Of a DNA stretch of 64,000 nt, positions 15,301 through 22,066 are shown one piece after another. The translations under genes and the position numbers were made by a program. Position 1 is the stretch's first letter, and the number at the start of each line of letters is the position of its first letter. Under the pieces are notes generated by a model, which was not told where the DNA came from, did no database searches, and saw nothing but the letters and a program-made list of their open reading frames with translations. The stretch is from NCBI RefSeq assembly GCF_000744815.1, contig NZ_JQMQ01000005.1, positions 1,682,055 to 1,746,054 of the forward strand. The letters run 5' to 3'. This DNA comes from Phaeacidiphilus oryzae TH49. Lineage in GTDB: Bacteria; Actinomycetota; Actinomycetes; Streptomycetales; Streptomycetaceae.

Positions 15301-17157
15301 ATGAGCACCCGACCCAGCAGCACCCCCTCCGCCTCCGCCGCCCCCGCGCCCTTCCCGGTCGTGGCCGTGGTCGGCCTCGGCACCATGGGCGCCGGGATCG
15401 CCGAGACCACCGCCCGCAGCGGGCGCGAGGTGATCGGCATCGAGGCGGACGCCGCCTCGGCGGCCGCCGCCCGCCGGCGGATCGAGGACGCCACCGCCCA
15501 CGCCGTGGAGCGCGGGCGGATCACCGACGAGGAGCGCCGCGGACTCCTCGACCGGATCACCGTCACCAGCGTGCTGGCCTCCGCGGCCCGCGCCGATCTG
15601 GTGATCGAGGAGATCCCGGAGGACCTGGAGCAGAAGCGCCGGCTCTTCGCCGAACTGGACCGGCTCTGCCCCCCGGAGACCGTCCTGGCCACCGGCACCA
15701 CCGCGTTGTCGGTGACCCGGATCGCCGCCGCCACCCAGCGCCCGGAGCGGGTCCTCGGCCTCCACTTCTTCAACCCGGCCCCGGTGATGAAGCTGGTCGA
15801 GGTGGTCGGCACGGTGCTGACGCAGCGTCAGTCCATCGAGGCGGCAAGCGAGTTCACCCGCCAGCTGGGCAAGTCGCCGGTCACCGCCGGGGACCGGGCC
15901 GGCTTCATCGTCAACGGCCTCCTCTTCGGCTATCTGAACCAGGCCGCCGCGATGTACGAGGCGCGGTACGCCGGCCGGGAGGACATCGACGCGGCGATGC
16001 GGCTGGGCTGCGGGCTGCCGATGGGGCCGCTGGCACTGCTGGACCTGATCGGCATCGACACCGCCCGCACCGTGCTGGAGGCGATGTACCAGCAGTCCGG
16101 CGACCGGCTGCACTCCCCCGCGCCGATCCTCGGCCAGCTCACCGCGGCCGGCCTGACCGGGCGGAAGGCCGGCCGCGGCTTCTACCGCTACGCGGCGGCG
16201 GGCTCCTCCCAGGTGGTGCCGGACGAGGGGCCGGTCGACAGCGCCGGCGCGGGCGAGGCGGGCACTGCGGCCGCCGCCGCCCGCACCGCCCCCCGCACCC
16301 GCGAGGTCGGCGCGGTGGGGGTGTGCGGCTCCGGGACGATGGCCTCCGGCATCGCCGAGGTCTTCGCCAAGGCCGGCTATCCGGTGACGCTGGTGGCGCG
16401 CAGTCAGGAGAAGGCCGAGCGGGCCAAGGCGGCGATCGCCAAGTCGCTCGGCCGGATGGTCGCCAAGGGGCGGCTGAGCGAGGAGGACCGGGACGCGGCA
16501 CTGGCCAGGATCGCCCCCACCGACGTCCTGGCCGACCTGGAACCGACCGACCTGGTGGTCGAGGCGGTGGCCGAACAGCTGGACGTGAAGCGGGAGTTGT
16601 TCACCTCGCTGGACAAGGTCTGCAAGCCGGGCGCGATCCTGGCCACCACCACCTCCAGCCTGCCGGTGGTGGAGTGCGCCACCGCGACCGGCCGGCCGCA
16701 GGACGTGGTCGGGCTGCACTTCTTCAACCCGGCGCCGGCCATGAAGCTGGTCGAGGTGGTCTCCACGGTGCTCACCGCGGAGGACGTCACCGAGACGGCG
16801 GTGGAGCTCTGCCGGAAGCTCCGCAAGCACCCGGTGCGCTGCGGCGACCGGGCCGGCTTCATCGTGAACGCGCTGCTCTTCCCGTACCTGAACGACGCGG
16901 TGCGGATGATCCAGGAGCACTACGCCAGCGTGGACGACGTGGACACCGCGATGCGGCTCGGCTGCGGCTACCCCATGGGCCCGTTCGACCTGCTGGACGT
17001 GGTCGGCCTGGACGTCTCGCTGGCCATCGAGCGGGTGCTGCACCGGGAGTTCCGGGAGCCGGGGCTGGCACCGGCGCCGCTGCTGGAGCACCTGGTGGCG
17101 GCGGGCTGCCTCGGCCGCAAGACCGGCCGGGGCTTCCGCGACCACGCGCGCCGGTGA
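15301..17157 (+). CDS. Duplicated 3-hydroxyacyl-CoA (3-hydroxybutyryl-CoA) dehydrogenase
   Basis: A 618-residue protein made of two complete 3-hydroxyacyl-CoA dehydrogenases in tandem. Copy 1 (about 18-300) has the NAD loop GLGTMGAG, HFFNPAPVMKLVEVV with the catalytic His, and AGFIVNGLLF. Copy 2 (about 338-618) has GSGTMASG, HFFNPAPAMKLVEVV and AGFIVNALLF. Both keep the His and the downstream Asn-containing segment, so both look active. A 35-residue Ala-rich linker joins them. It would reduce acetoacetyl-CoA or oxidise 3-hydroxybutyryl-CoA, feeding crotonyl-CoA to the ccr pathway encoded next door. GAGGAGAC upstream fixes the ATG. Confidence 0.92.
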   Translation: MSTRPSSTPSASAAPAPFPVVAVVGLGTMGAGIAETTARSGREVIGIEADAASAAAARRRIEDATAHAVERGRITDEERRGLLDRITVTSVLASAARADLVIEEIPEDLEQKRRLFAELDRLCPPETVLATGTTALSVTRIAAATQRPERVLGLHFFNPAPVMKLVEVVGTVLTQRQSIEAASEFTRQLGKSPVTAGDRAGFIVNGLLFGYLNQAAAMYEARYAGREDIDAAMRLGCGLPMGPLALLDLIGIDTARTVLEAMYQQSGDRLHSPAPILGQLTAAGLTGRKAGRGFYRYAAAGSSQVVPDEGPVDSAGAGEAGTAAAAARTAPRTREVGAVGVCGSGTMASGIAEVFAKAGYPVTLVARSQEKAERAKAAIAKSLGRMVAKGRLSEEDRDAALARIAPTDVLADLEPTDLVVEAVAEQLDVKRELFTSLDKVCKPGAILATTTSSLPVVECATATGRPQDVVGLHFFNPAPAMKLVEVVSTVLTAEDVTETAVELCRKLRKHPVRCGDRAGFIVNALLFPYLNDAVRMIQEHYASVDDVDTAMRLGCGYPMGPFDLLDVVGLDVSLAIERVLHREFREPGLAPAPLLEHLVAAGCLGRKTGRGFRDHARR

Positions 17158-17288
17158 CCGTGCGGGCGTCGGCCCGGACGGCGGCCCGGACATCGGCCCC
17201 GGCCCCGGCTCGGACCTCGGCCCGGCCGGCCGCGCGGGCCCCCGCTCGCCCGGCCGGGTCGGCCACCTGCACGTGTACCGTTCCCACC

Positions 17289-18218
17289 ATGGAGAAGGGC
17301 ACCCAGGAGACCCCGGCCACCCCGTCCGGCGCGAGCGGCGCCGGCGGCGCGGGCGGTTCCAACGGCGCGGGCGGTTCGAACGGCGCGAGCGGTTCCAACG
17401 GCAACGGCGGCGGCCGGCGGGCCTCCGCCCAGCGGCTGCAGATGCGGCAGGAACTGGCGGCGGCCGCGATGGAGCTCTTCTCCACCCAGGGGTACGAGGA
17501 GACCACGGTCGACCAGATCGCCGCCGCCGCCGGGGTGGCCCGGCGCACCTTCTTCCGGTACTTCCGGTCCAAGGAGGAGGCGATCTTCCCGGACCACGAG
17601 GAGACCCTGGTCCGGGTGGCCGACCTGCTGGCCGCCTCGGACCCGGACGAGCACCCGATCGACGTGGTCTGCCGGGGCATCAAGGAGGTGCTGCGGATGT
17701 ACGCCGCGGCGCCGGCCGTCTCGGTGGCCCGCTACCGGCTGATCCGCCAGGTGCCGACGCTGCGCGAGCGGGAGATCACCGTGGTCGCCCGGTACGAGCG
17801 GCTGTTCACCCGCTACCTCCTGGGCCGCTTCGGCGAGCCCTCCCTGGGGGGCCGCGCGGGCCGCGGGGACGACACCATGCTGGCCGAGGTGTCCGCCGCC
17901 GCCGTGGTCGCCGCCCACAACCACGTGCTGCGGCGCTGGCTGCGGGCGGGCGGCAAGGGGGACCCGGAGGCGCAGCTTGACCACGCCTTCCGGGTGATCC
18001 GCCGGACCTTCTGGGCGGGCGCCCCCGGCGAGAGCACTGTGGCACGCAGTGCCATGGACGGGGTCCAAGGGGCCCTGGAGGAGGCCGTCCAGTCCGCCGT
18101 GACGCCCAGCCCGTCGGGCGAGGTACTGATCACGGTGGCCCGTACCGACGCCCCGCTGAGCGAGGTGCTGGAGAGCGTCAGGTCCGCGCTCGACGGTGCC
18201 GGACGGCCCGCCCGATGA
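17289..18218 (+). CDS. TetR-family regulator of the ethylmalonyl-CoA cluster
   Basis: A 309-residue TetR-type regulator. The HTH (about residues 55-100) reads AAAMELFSTQGYEETTVDQIAAAAGVARRTFFRYFRSKEEA (in pieces), an excellent match to the TetR N-terminal domain with the FFRYF recognition-helix end. The first 45 residues are Gly/Ser/Asn repeats (GGSNGAGGSNGASGSNG) and probably disordered. The C-terminal ligand-binding half is not diagnostic; acyl-CoA sensing is an inference from context. It lies directly between the dehydrogenase gene and ccr on the same strand, as in other streptomycetes. A 15-bp palindrome in the ccr promoter is its best candidate operator. Confidence 0.9.
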   Translation: MEKGTQETPATPSGASGAGGAGGSNGAGGSNGASGSNGNGGGRRASAQRLQMRQELAAAAMELFSTQGYEETTVDQIAAAAGVARRTFFRYFRSKEEAIFPDHEETLVRVADLLAASDPDEHPIDVVCRGIKEVLRMYAAAPAVSVARYRLIRQVPTLREREITVVARYERLFTRYLLGRFGEPSLGGRAGRGDDTMLAEVSAAAVVAAHNHVLRRWLRAGGKGDPEAQLDHAFRVIRRTFWAGAPGESTVARSAMDGVQGALEEAVQSAVTPSPSGEVLITVARTDAPLSEVLESVRSALDGAGRPAR

Positions 18219-18264
18219 TCGCCGAATGATCGCCAACTGATCGATCGGGGCTGGTGAAACCGGA

Positions 18265-18306
18265 GGCCGGAGGGGTTCGACGATCGATCGTCGAACCCCT
18301 CCGGCC
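18265..18306. terminator. 42-bp perfect palindrome, likely transcription terminator
   Basis: The sequence 18265-18306 is identical to its own reverse complement over all 42 bases (centre between 18285 and 18286, inside CGATCG). As RNA it would fold into a near-perfect 19-20-bp stem. It starts 47 bp after the tetR stop and has no U-tract, which is common for streptomycete terminators. It would separate tetR from ccr transcription. Confidence 0.6.
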
Positions 18307-18426
18307 GGTGCGGCGGCCATCCGGGTGACGGTCCGCGGAAGAGCGCCGGGAGCGCCGCCGCACCTACCCCGGCGGGCCCTCCGCGCGCCACGTGACACGC
18401 ATCGCAGATTCCTGGCACGCGGTGTC

Positions 18427-18456
18427 TTTACGGATGGCACGGCGTGCCAGTACCTT
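18427..18456 (+). promoter_or_regulatory. ccr promoter with TetR-type operator in the spacer
   Basis: TTTACG (18427-18432) and TACCTT (18451-18456) are spaced by 18 bp. The spacer contains the 15-bp palindrome TGGCACG-G-CGTGCCA (18435-18449), arms perfect. Repressor bound there would occlude RNA polymerase, the classic TetR arrangement, and a TetR gene lies just upstream. Assignment is by pattern only. Confidence 0.5.
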
Positions 18457-18635
18457 GTTACCCACCGGTCACGGCGCAGCGGCTCCCACCAGGTGCGCCA
18501 CCGGTATGCGCGACCGAAGACGCCGACTGCACCCACCGCAGGTACGCACGTACTGCGACCACCGCACGCCAATCCTTCGACGAGCACCCTCACCCTCACC
18601 CCTTCACCGCCGGACCACCGCCGGAGGCAACCGCC

Positions 18636-20006
18636 ATGAACGAGATCCTCGACGCCGCCCTCAGCGGCCAGGCCAGTTCCGAGGACTGGGCCGCGATCCA
18701 GATCCCCGACCACTACCGCGCCGTGACGCTCCACAAGGACGAGCAGGAGATGTTCGCCGGCCTCGACAGCCGGGACAAGGACCCCCGCAAGTCCCTCCAC
18801 CTGGACGACGTGCCGGTGCCCGAACTCGGCCCGGGCGAGGCACTGGTGGCGGTGATGGCCAGCTCGGTCAACTACAACACCGTCTGGTCGGCCATCTTCG
18901 AGCCGGTCTCCACCTTCAACTTCCTCTCCCGCTACGGGAAGAGCTCGCCACTGGGGGCCCGGCACGACCTGCCGTACCACATCCTCGGCTCCGACCTGGC
19001 CGGCGTGGTGCTGCGCACCGGCCCCGGAGTGCAGCGCTGGAAGGCCGGTGACGAGGTGGTGGCGCACTGCCTCTCCGTGGAGCTGGAGAGCGCCGACGGC
19101 CACAACGACACGATGCTCGACCCAGAGCAGCGGATCTGGGGCTTCGAGACCAACTTCGGCGGCCTGGCCGAGATCGCCCTGGTCAAGAGCAACCAGCTGA
19201 TGCCCAAGCCGGACCACCTCAGCTGGGAGGAGGCCGCCTCCCCCGGCCTGGTGAACTCCACCGCCTACCGGCAGCTGGTCTCCCGCAACGGCGCCGGGAT
19301 GAAGCAGGGCGACAACGTCCTGATCTGGGGGGCCAGTGGCGGCCTCGGCTCGTACGCCACCCAGTTCGCGCTGGCCGGCGGTGCCACCCCGATCTGTGTG
19401 GTCTCCAGTGAGGCCAAGGCGGAGATCTGCCGGGCGATGGGGGCGGAGGCGGTGATCGACCGCCGGGCCGAGGACTTCCGCTTCTGGAAGGACGAGCGGA
19501 CCCAGGACCCGCGGGAGTGGAAGCGCTTCGGCAAGCGGATCCGCGAGTTCACCGACGGCGAGGACGTCGACATCGTCTTCGAGCACCCGGGCCGGGAGAC
19601 CTTCGGCGCCAGCGTCTATGTGACCCGCAAGGGCGGCACCATCGTCACCTGCGCCTCCACCTCGGGCTATATGCACGAGTACGACAACCGCTACCTGTGG
19701 ATGTCGCTGAAGCGGATCATCGGCTCGCACTTCGCCAACTACCGGGAGGCCTGGGAGGCGAACCGGCTGATCGCCAAGGGGAAGATCCACCCGACGCTGT
19801 CCAAGGTCTACCCGCTGGAGGAGTCCGGGCAGGCCGCGCTGGACGTCCACCACAACCGGCACCAGGGCAAGGTCGGCGTGCTGTGCCTCGCCCCGCAGGA
19901 GGGCCTGGGCGTGCGCGACCAGGAGAAGCGGGCGAAGCACCTGGACGCCATCAACCTGTTCCGCGAGCGCAGCGAGCGGACCATCGAGCACAGCCGCAAC
20001 GTCTGA
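18636..20006 (+). CDS. ccr: Crotonyl-CoA carboxylase/reductase
   Basis: A 456-residue medium-chain dehydrogenase that uses NADPH and CO2 to convert crotonyl-CoA to (2S)-ethylmalonyl-CoA, the committing step of the ethylmalonyl-CoA pathway and a source of the polyketide extender unit. Family-specific blocks are present: SSVNYNTVWSAIFEP, the NADPH loop WGASGGLGSYATQ, CASTSGYMHEYDNRYLW and the conserved C-terminal HHNRHQGKVGVLCLAP. Length matches the family. Start ATG 18636 follows CGGAGG at 8 nt. The mutase gene begins 11 bp after its stop, so ccr-ecm-mcl form one operon, probably under the TetR-type operator upstream. Confidence 0.96.
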   Translation: MNEILDAALSGQASSEDWAAIQIPDHYRAVTLHKDEQEMFAGLDSRDKDPRKSLHLDDVPVPELGPGEALVAVMASSVNYNTVWSAIFEPVSTFNFLSRYGKSSPLGARHDLPYHILGSDLAGVVLRTGPGVQRWKAGDEVVAHCLSVELESADGHNDTMLDPEQRIWGFETNFGGLAEIALVKSNQLMPKPDHLSWEEAASPGLVNSTAYRQLVSRNGAGMKQGDNVLIWGASGGLGSYATQFALAGGATPICVVSSEAKAEICRAMGAEAVIDRRAEDFRFWKDERTQDPREWKRFGKRIREFTDGEDVDIVFEHPGRETFGASVYVTRKGGTIVTCASTSGYMHEYDNRYLWMSLKRIIGSHFANYREAWEANRLIAKGKIHPTLSKVYPLEESGQAALDVHHNRHQGKVGVLCLAPQEGLGVRDQEKRAKHLDAINLFRERSERTIEHSRNV

Positions 20007-20017
20007 ACAGGGGGCGC

Positions 20018-22066
20018 ATGATGACGGATCGTCAGACCGGACGGGAGCGGGAGCGGGACCGGCCCTGGCTGATGCGGACCTACGCGGGCCACTCCACCGC
20101 GGCCGCGTCCAACGCGCTCTACCGGCGCAACCTCGCCAAGGGGCAGACGGGTCTCTCGGTCGCCTTCGACCTGCCGACCCAGACCGGCTACGACCCGGAC
20201 CACATCCTCGCCCGCGGCGAGGTCGGCCGGGTCGGCGTGCCGGTCTCCCACCTCGGTGACATGCGCGCCCTCTTCGACGGCATCCCGCTGGAGAAGACCA
20301 ACACCTCGATGACCATCAACGCCACCGCCATGTGGCTGCTGGCGCTCTACCAGGCGGTCGCCGAGGAGCAGGGCGCGGACGTCGCCAAGCTCACCGGGAC
20401 GGTGCAGAACGACATCGTCAAGGAGTACCTCTCCCGGGGGACGCACGTGTTCCCGCCCGGGCCCTCGCTCCGGCTGACGACCGACACCATCGCCTACGCG
20501 GTGGCGAACATCCCCAAGTGGAACCCGATCAACATCTGCAGCTACCACCTCCAGGAGGCCGGGGCCACCCCGGTCCAGGAGCTGGCGTACGCGATGTGCA
20601 CGGCGATCGCCGTGCTGGACGCGGTCCGCGACTCCGGGCAGGTGCCCGAGGAGCGGATGGGCGACGTGGTCGGGCGGATCTCCTTCTTCGTCAACGCGGG
20701 CGTCCGCTTCGTCGAGGAGATGTGCAAGATGCGGGCCTTCACCCGGATCTGGGACCGCGTCACCTTCGAGCGCTACGGCGTCCGGGACGAGAAGCAACGT
20801 CGTTTCCGGTACGGGGTGCAGGTCAACTCGCTGGGGCTGACCGAGGCCCAGCCGGAGAACAACGTCCAGCGGATCGTGCTGGAGATGCTCGCGGTGACAC
20901 TGTCCAAGGACGCCCGCGCTCGTGCCGTCCAGCTCCCGGCCTGGAACGAGGCCCTGGGCCTCCCCCGGCCGTGGGACCAGCAGTGGTCGCTGCGGATCCA
21001 GCAGGTGCTGGCCTACGAGTCCGACCTGCTGGAGTACGGGGACCTCTTCGAGGGCTCCAAGGTCGTCGAGGCCAAGACCGAGGAGCTGGTCGAGGGCGCC
21101 GAGGAGGAGATCGAGCGGGTGCTGGAGATGGGCGGGGTCATCCCGGCCGTCGAGTCCGGCTACCTCAAGGCGCAGCTGGTCTCCTCGCACGCGGAGCGGC
21201 GGGCCCGGATCGAGTCCGGCGAGGACACCGTGGTCGGCGTCAACGCCTTCACCGGCACCGAGCCCAACCCGCTGACCGCGGACCTGGACGCCGCGGTCCA
21301 GCAGGTCGACCCGGCGCACGAGAAGGCGACCGTCGAGGCCCTGCAGCGCTGGCGCAAGGAGCGCGACCCGTCCGCGGTCGCCGACGCGCTCGGCGACCTC
21401 AAGCGGGCGGCCGCGACCGAGCAGAACCTCATGCATTGGACGCTGGCCTGCGTGAAGGCCGGGGTGACCACCGGCGAGTGGGCGCAGGCGCTGCGCGAGG
21501 TGTTCGGCGAGTACCGGGCGCCGACCGGCGTCTCCTCGGCCCCGGTGGCCGTCTCCGCGGAGACCGACGCCGAGCTGGCCGAGGTGCGGGAGGCCGTACG
21601 GGCGACGGCGGAGGAGCTGGGGGTCGGCGCGCTGCGGCTGCTGGTCGGCAAGCCGGGCCTGGACGGCCACTCCAACGGCGCCGAGCAGATCGCCGTGCGG
21701 GCGCGGGACGCCGGCCTGGAGGTCGTCTACCAGGGCATCCGGCTGACCCCCGAGCAGATCGCGGCGGCGGCCGTGGCCGAGGACGTCCACTGCGTCGGCC
21801 TGTCCATCCTCTCCGGGGCACACGCCGAGCTTGTGCCGGACGTCATACGGCGCCTGCGGGCGGCCGGAGGGGAGGATGTGCCCGTGGTGGTCGGCGGCAT
21901 CATCCCGGCCGCGGACGAGCGGGCCCTGATCGCCGAGGGGGTGGCGGCCGTGTTCACCCCCAAGGACTTCGGCATCACCGCGATCATCGGCCGGATCGTC
22001 GACCACATCCGCGCCGCGAACCAGCTGGCGCCGTACGCGAAGCGAAAGGAAGCCCACGCAGCATGA
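20018..22066 (+). CDS. ecm: Ethylmalonyl-CoA mutase (coenzyme B12-dependent)
   Basis: A 682-residue single-chain mutase that rearranges (2R)-ethylmalonyl-CoA to (2S)-methylsuccinyl-CoA. The N-terminal TIM barrel (about 20-520) has GLSVAFDLPTQTGYDPDH and NDIVKEYLSRGTHVFPP, typical of the MeaA/Ecm branch. The C-terminal B12-binding domain (about 540-680) has the base-off motif D-x-H-x-x-G in GLDGHSNG with the lower-ligand His near residue 551. Paired ATGs at 20018 and 20021 both could start translation. The stop overlaps the mcl start by 4 bp. Its cofactor would come from cobalamin synthesis, part of which is encoded at the right end of the window. Confidence 0.93.
   Translation: MMTDRQTGRERERDRPWLMRTYAGHSTAAASNALYRRNLAKGQTGLSVAFDLPTQTGYDPDHILARGEVGRVGVPVSHLGDMRALFDGIPLEKTNTSMTINATAMWLLALYQAVAEEQGADVAKLTGTVQNDIVKEYLSRGTHVFPPGPSLRLTTDTIAYAVANIPKWNPINICSYHLQEAGATPVQELAYAMCTAIAVLDAVRDSGQVPEERMGDVVGRISFFVNAGVRFVEEMCKMRAFTRIWDRVTFERYGVRDEKQRRFRYGVQVNSLGLTEAQPENNVQRIVLEMLAVTLSKDARARAVQLPAWNEALGLPRPWDQQWSLRIQQVLAYESDLLEYGDLFEGSKVVEAKTEELVEGAEEEIERVLEMGGVIPAVESGYLKAQLVSSHAERRARIESGEDTVVGVNAFTGTEPNPLTADLDAAVQQVDPAHEKATVEALQRWRKERDPSAVADALGDLKRAAATEQNLMHWTLACVKAGVTTGEWAQALREVFGEYRAPTGVSSAPVAVSAETDAELAEVREAVRATAEELGVGALRLLVGKPGLDGHSNGAEQIAVRARDAGLEVVYQGIRLTPEQIAAAAVAEDVHCVGLSILSGAHAELVPDVIRRLRAAGGEDVPVVVGGIIPAADERALIAEGVAAVFTPKDFGITAIIGRIVDHIRAANQLAPYAKRKEAHAA

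Follow-up and report, generated by a model that had tools for sequence, protein, structure and literature searches.

Tandem TetR-type operators in the ccr promoter of Phaeacidiphilus oryzae and a probable acetate-assimilation regulon in Streptomycetaceae

The window considered here is a stretch of 64,000 nucleotides from the genome of Phaeacidiphilus oryzae TH49 (contig NZ_JQMQ01000005.1). In this stretch, the gene of a TetR-type regulator stands directly upstream of ccr, as the first-pass annotation had proposed and as was confirmed by the match of its product to PF00440, the TetR N-terminal DNA-binding domain TetR_N (60.3 bits, E 1.5e-16, cut-off 24). The same product matches the MftR C-terminal domain PF17754 (E 1.6e-5). 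Pfam searches also revealed two 3-hydroxyacyl-CoA dehydrogenase domains on the upstream side of tetR and a CitE-like lyase and an acyl-CoA dehydrogenase on the downstream side of ccr. This gene order matches that of SCO6475 (FadB-like), SCO6474 (TetR) and SCO6473 (crotonyl-CoA reductase) of S. coelicolor, as described in the available parts of PMC7324645 and PMC3087709, and, judging by order and name, these three are the apparent orthologues of the window genes. The features of the locus, in window coordinates, are as follows.

17289 to 18218, + strand: tetR, 309-aa TetR regulator with an MftR-like C-terminal domain
18040 to 18054, no strand: third, perfect operator TGGCACGCAGTGCCA inside tetR, with rare codons fixed
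18265 to 18306, no strand: perfect 21-nt inverted repeat without a loop, located after tetR and before the ccr promoter, possible terminator (putative function)
18413 to 18427, no strand: distal operator TGGCACGCGGTGTCT, overlapping the first base of the -35
18427 to 18432, + strand: -35 hexamer TTTACG
18435 to 18449, no strand: proximal operator TGGCACGGCGTGCCA within the spacer, perfect palindrome TGGCACG-G-CGTGCCA
18451 to 18456, + strand: -10 hexamer TACCTT
18457 to 18635, + strand: ccr leader, putative 5' untranslated region
18636 to 20006, + strand: ccr, crotonyl-CoA carboxylase/reductase, 456 aa (TIGR01751, 626.1 bits, cut-off 378.55)

The inverted repeat is not followed by a T run, and a rule-based terminator scan gave no terminator at this place. 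An RNA element in the ccr leader was rejected owing to the absence of any matching family in an Rfam search of positions 16000 to 20500. The TetR protein (P0001) carries a conserved C-terminal tail, approximately residues 276 to 301 with the consensus GEVLVTVARTDAPLDEVM, that extends beyond the TetR fold and is badly modelled in the predicted structure (mean pLDDT 71).

The hexamers TTTACG and TACCTT are separated by a spacer of 18 nt, GATGGCACGGCGTGCCAG. The first-pass annotation had given their sequence and coordinates correctly and had placed them at the ccr start; in fact, the start codon ATG at 18636 lies 179 nt beyond the -10. The palindrome that it had noticed in the spacer is indeed perfect. 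What had been taken for a second half-site 22 bp upstream, the TGGCACG at 18413, proved to belong, as the left arm, to a full operator, TGGCACGCGGTGTCT, a weaker copy with two mismatches to TGGCACNNNGTGCCA and a centre 22 bp upstream of that of the proximal one. A generic sigma-70 consensus scan detected no promoter; the ccr promoter was assigned by conservation. No operator was seen upstream of tetR itself in the search of the window.

The motif TGGCACNNNGTGCCA occurs three times in the genome of 7,806,543 bases, vs about 0.8 occurrences expected from the base composition of the window, and two of the three copies are located 395 bp apart at the tetR-ccr locus. Its relaxed form, TGRCACNNNGTGYCW, was found at five places in the 7.8-Mb genome, three of them within 410 bp at the same locus. 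The palindrome at ccr is not a product of chance. The perfect site at C5:6832987, where a bioF-like reading frame (identified by eye) begins, was rejected as a regulatory one and is probably fortuitous.

The comparison with orthologous ccr promoters that the first-pass annotation had suggested was carried out on 80 fetched loci of related TetR genes. In 77 of them ccr is the next gene, and together with the window's own locus these make 78; L059, L065 and L068 were left out of this count, since no ccr was detected in the DNA retrieved for them. Absence of the palindrome from such promoters would have refuted the first-pass annotation by its own criterion; 78/78 loci have it, everywhere as a member of a tandem pair of operators exactly 22 bp apart, and both sites fit TGRCACNNNGTGYCW in 72 of the 78. 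The -35 is kept in register, as TTTACG or TTTACT in 28/78 loci and as TTG-type hexamers at the same position in the other 50/78, and a -10 of the form TA(C/G/A)(C/G)(T/G)T follows the operator immediately or one base further in all 78. Information per base over these loci amounts to 1.69 and 1.64 bits in the two operators vs 0.53 upstream and 0.70 downstream. In Markov-resampled intergenic sequence, the operator pair did not appear in any of 50 rounds.

In our opinion, it is quite probable, judging from this arrangement, that the upstream TetR represses ccr by covering its promoter until a metabolite releases it. TetR dimers would bind the two 15-bp operators that overlie the -35 and the -35/-10 spacer; with their centres 22 bp or two helical turns apart, these would lie on the same face of DNA. 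The bound protein would keep RNA polymerase off ccr, and a metabolite of C2/C4 acyl-CoA metabolism would cause its release. The simplest reading is steric repression, given that one DNA face carries operators across both the -35 and the spacer. We infer both that this TetR acts as a repressor and that it is the binder at every site. An acyl-CoA as the inducer is plausible in view of the gene context and of the MftR and FadR-like relatives; FadR-like 3anp with lauroyl-CoA is among the fold matches.

CcrR of Methylobacterium extorquens AM1 reportedly belongs to the TetR family and activates a gene of the ethylmalonyl-CoA pathway, and by analogy with it the TetR protein considered here could activate ccr. 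The likeness, drawn by description only, is in the protein family and the pathway, while CcrR differs in being an activator and in belonging to an alphaproteobacterium. Activation seems highly improbable, since in 78/78 loci the operators occupy the -35 and the spacer, a position that suits blocking and not activating.

Beside the pair at the promoter, the proposed regulation by TetR may involve the third operator, TGGCACGCAGTGCCA, inside tetR. With at most one mismatch, it was found in 28/28 loci of the window's clade (26 perfect) and in 79/80 further regions, some of which are duplicates; 85 distinct sequences remained in all after removal of regions with identical last 300 nt and of L195, which is without the intragenic site. 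On the Streptomyces side, 0/50 loci have an operator within tetR. Together with its location in coding sequence, this could mean that the intragenic copy is a by-product of the protein sequence without a regulatory role. Such an origin is distinctly unlikely, for the copy lies in a linker that varies in protein, yet its DNA is conserved on the Kitasatospora/Streptacidiphilus side of the family and its codons are fixed in the clade, Ala being encoded by the rare GCA in 74/74 Ala rows (background 6.9%) and Gly by GGT in 61/62 Gly rows (background 16%). The intragenic operator is taken as a selected DNA site, and it may act as an auxiliary one, either as a roadblock of tetR transcription or by loop formation with the promoter. 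Two of the Streptomyces-side loci, L044 and L072, possess an extra perfect site that precedes the proximal operator by 187 bp.

The distance between the intragenic and proximal operators ranges from 248 to 395 bp in the 85 sequences. In a tree test, 25 changes of at least 4 bp followed a 10.5-bp period, with a mean cosine of 0.43 (p about 0.001) vs 0.02 in the Streptomyces-side control, and the phase test on clustered distances gave p about 0.05. Helical phasing was nevertheless rejected as a proof of looping: larger steps are unphased, and the signal comes from steps of approximately 10 bp, of which the control has many too.

The distribution of sites across genomes bears on the nature of the binder. 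An orthologue of the TetR is present in 191/200 genomes of the family (E up to 1e-60), and in a wider sample it was found in 132/132 family members and in 0/15 representatives of other families of the order. The 191 TetR-bearing genomes contain on average 2.84 perfect sites vs 0.72 for a reversed-pattern control, and the nine TetR-less genomes, a small set clustered in four genera, contain 1.11 vs 1.00; the difference gives p = 2.5e-4 in a test that treats related genomes as independent. Seven of the nine TetR-less genomes possess ccr, at eight loci, and none of these loci (0/8) has the operator in a search with up to two mismatches, although ccr occupies a different locus there, which means that two different promoters are being compared. 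In most of the TetR-less ccr loci read, a methylmalonyl-CoA epimerase-like gene is a neighbour; in L108-L112, L114 and L115, ccr adjoins, by eye, this gene and that of a coiled-coil protein. Binding of a TetR-family protein at the ccr operators is supported by co-occurrence and by the operators of its nearest relatives, MftR and SCO3201.

Some sites have other surroundings. In a genome without the ccr-associated TetR, a perfect site (L102, 2029-2043) is flanked by an MFS-transporter-like gene and by the gene of another TetR, and the perfect palindrome TGGCACTATGTGCCA is kept before the gene of a ROK-like regulator (by eye) in three genomes (L094, L095 and L096).

The promoters of pyruvate phosphate dikinase (ppdK) and isocitrate lyase came to attention through other perfect sites found in relatives, and the systematic checks that followed allowed up to one mismatch upstream of the first matched codon. 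For isocitrate lyase, the site was found in all eight TetR-bearing genomes that have the gene, 110-261 bp upstream, and in 0/1 TetR-less genome. For ppdK, it was found in 15/20 TetR-bearing genomes, 265-328 bp upstream, in 0/2 second copies of the gene in such genomes and in 0/7 TetR-less loci, two of which are only about 62% identical and are probably paralogues. The citrate synthase gene is preceded by the site in 12/21 TetR-bearing genomes and in 1/9 TetR-less ones (G009). The window's own genome belongs to the 12, its fourth relaxed site standing before citrate synthase; it has no ppdK site (0/1) and no isocitrate lyase match, and the latter fits reliance on the ethylmalonyl-CoA route. These sites, the second full operator at ccr and the operator inside tetR go beyond the first-pass annotation. 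It may be suggested from the distribution of sites that the neighbouring TetR probably switches a small acetate-assimilation regulon in the family.

Two TetR paralogues are encoded in the window's genome. One of them, 49% identical to the ccr-adjacent TetR of the same genome, precedes a promoter of the same architecture, with TGGTACTCAGTGCCT, 7 bases, AGGAACTGAGTGTCA and TACATT. A near-perfect site is also located where the reading frame of this paralogue begins. The paralogue (L085 1560-2416, i.e., G000:C5:707559-708415) is followed by the tandem layout and then by a small protein for which neither Pfam nor NCBIfam gave a match. The paralogues and the similar operator pair at one of them, the perfect site retained before citrate synthase in G009, which is without a TetR orthologue, and the binding of SCO3201 to TGGCAGATTCTGCCA (PMC7324645, in its available part) favour a scheme in which the ccr sites are bound by another MftR/SCO3201-type TetR or by a paralogue, the neighbouring TetR being one of several binders. 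We consider it rather unlikely, because the ccr operators and the motif excess follow the presence of the neighbouring TetR, and the order TetR-ccr is kept in 77/80 fetched loci. Some regulon sites may belong to a paralogue, in view of the citrate synthase site in the TetR-less G009.

With the neighbouring TetR as the binder, a broader generalization can be offered as a tentative and somewhat doubtful one, namely that a single TetR would be the acetate switch of Streptomycetaceae, governing ccr, isocitrate lyase, citrate synthase and ppdK on one acyl-CoA signal, and that the Kitasatospora/Streptacidiphilus lineage would also use the intragenic operator for looping or as a roadblock.

The proposed regulation bears on how streptomycetes switch on acetate assimilation and the supply of ethylmalonyl-CoA, a polyketide extender unit. 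According to the available passages of PMC4606968, ccr1 did not reach the limits of quantification on glucose/dextrin medium; these passages name no regulator for it. A search in a limited library of literature gave no paper on the motif, on this TetR as a regulator of ccr or on the regulon, which is apparently undescribed within the library searched. The gain of the present analysis is a named protein, exact predicted operators and a list of targets, which offer a handle on precursor supply.

Among known systems, AccR of S. avermitilis is similar in that it is a Streptomyces repressor of the TetR type and acts on short-chain acyl-CoA metabolism. It was rejected as the ccr regulator by its motif, GTTAA-N6-TTAAC, which differs from TGGCAC-N3-GTGCCA found here; ccr is absent from its targets listed in the available part of the review PMC10933834. 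In S. venezuelae, the ccr promoter (Sven_6307) was among GlnR-enriched fragments and is without a GlnR motif, as stated in the accessible part of PMC3087709.

MftR is the closest named family by HMM, and 2rae and 8x0a are among the top folds; the score with TIGR03968, 102.7 bits, is below the equivalog cut-off of 224.9. The MftR consensus T-N2-GGCA-N5-TGCC-N2-A, described in the available part of PMC8728441 along with long-chain acyl-CoA effectors, has a core, GGCA-N5-TGCC, that is contained in TGGCACNNNGTGCCA. The differences are that the neighbour here is ccr and not mft genes, and that there are two operators with TGGCAC-N3-GTGCCA arms. In addition, His68 of MftR, needed for oleoyl-CoA binding, is replaced by Thr106 in a pairwise alignment via 2rae read by hand, and for this reason the MftR ligand cannot be carried over directly to this protein.

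SCO3201 of S. coelicolor is a related TetR, which is among the best sequence and fold matches. The available passages of PMC7324645 report no SCO3201 site at sco6475/sco6474. The 15-bp site of SCO3201 described there shares the core GGCA-N5-TGCC with the operators of the ccr locus and differs from them in the inner bases, G..C vs C..G here.
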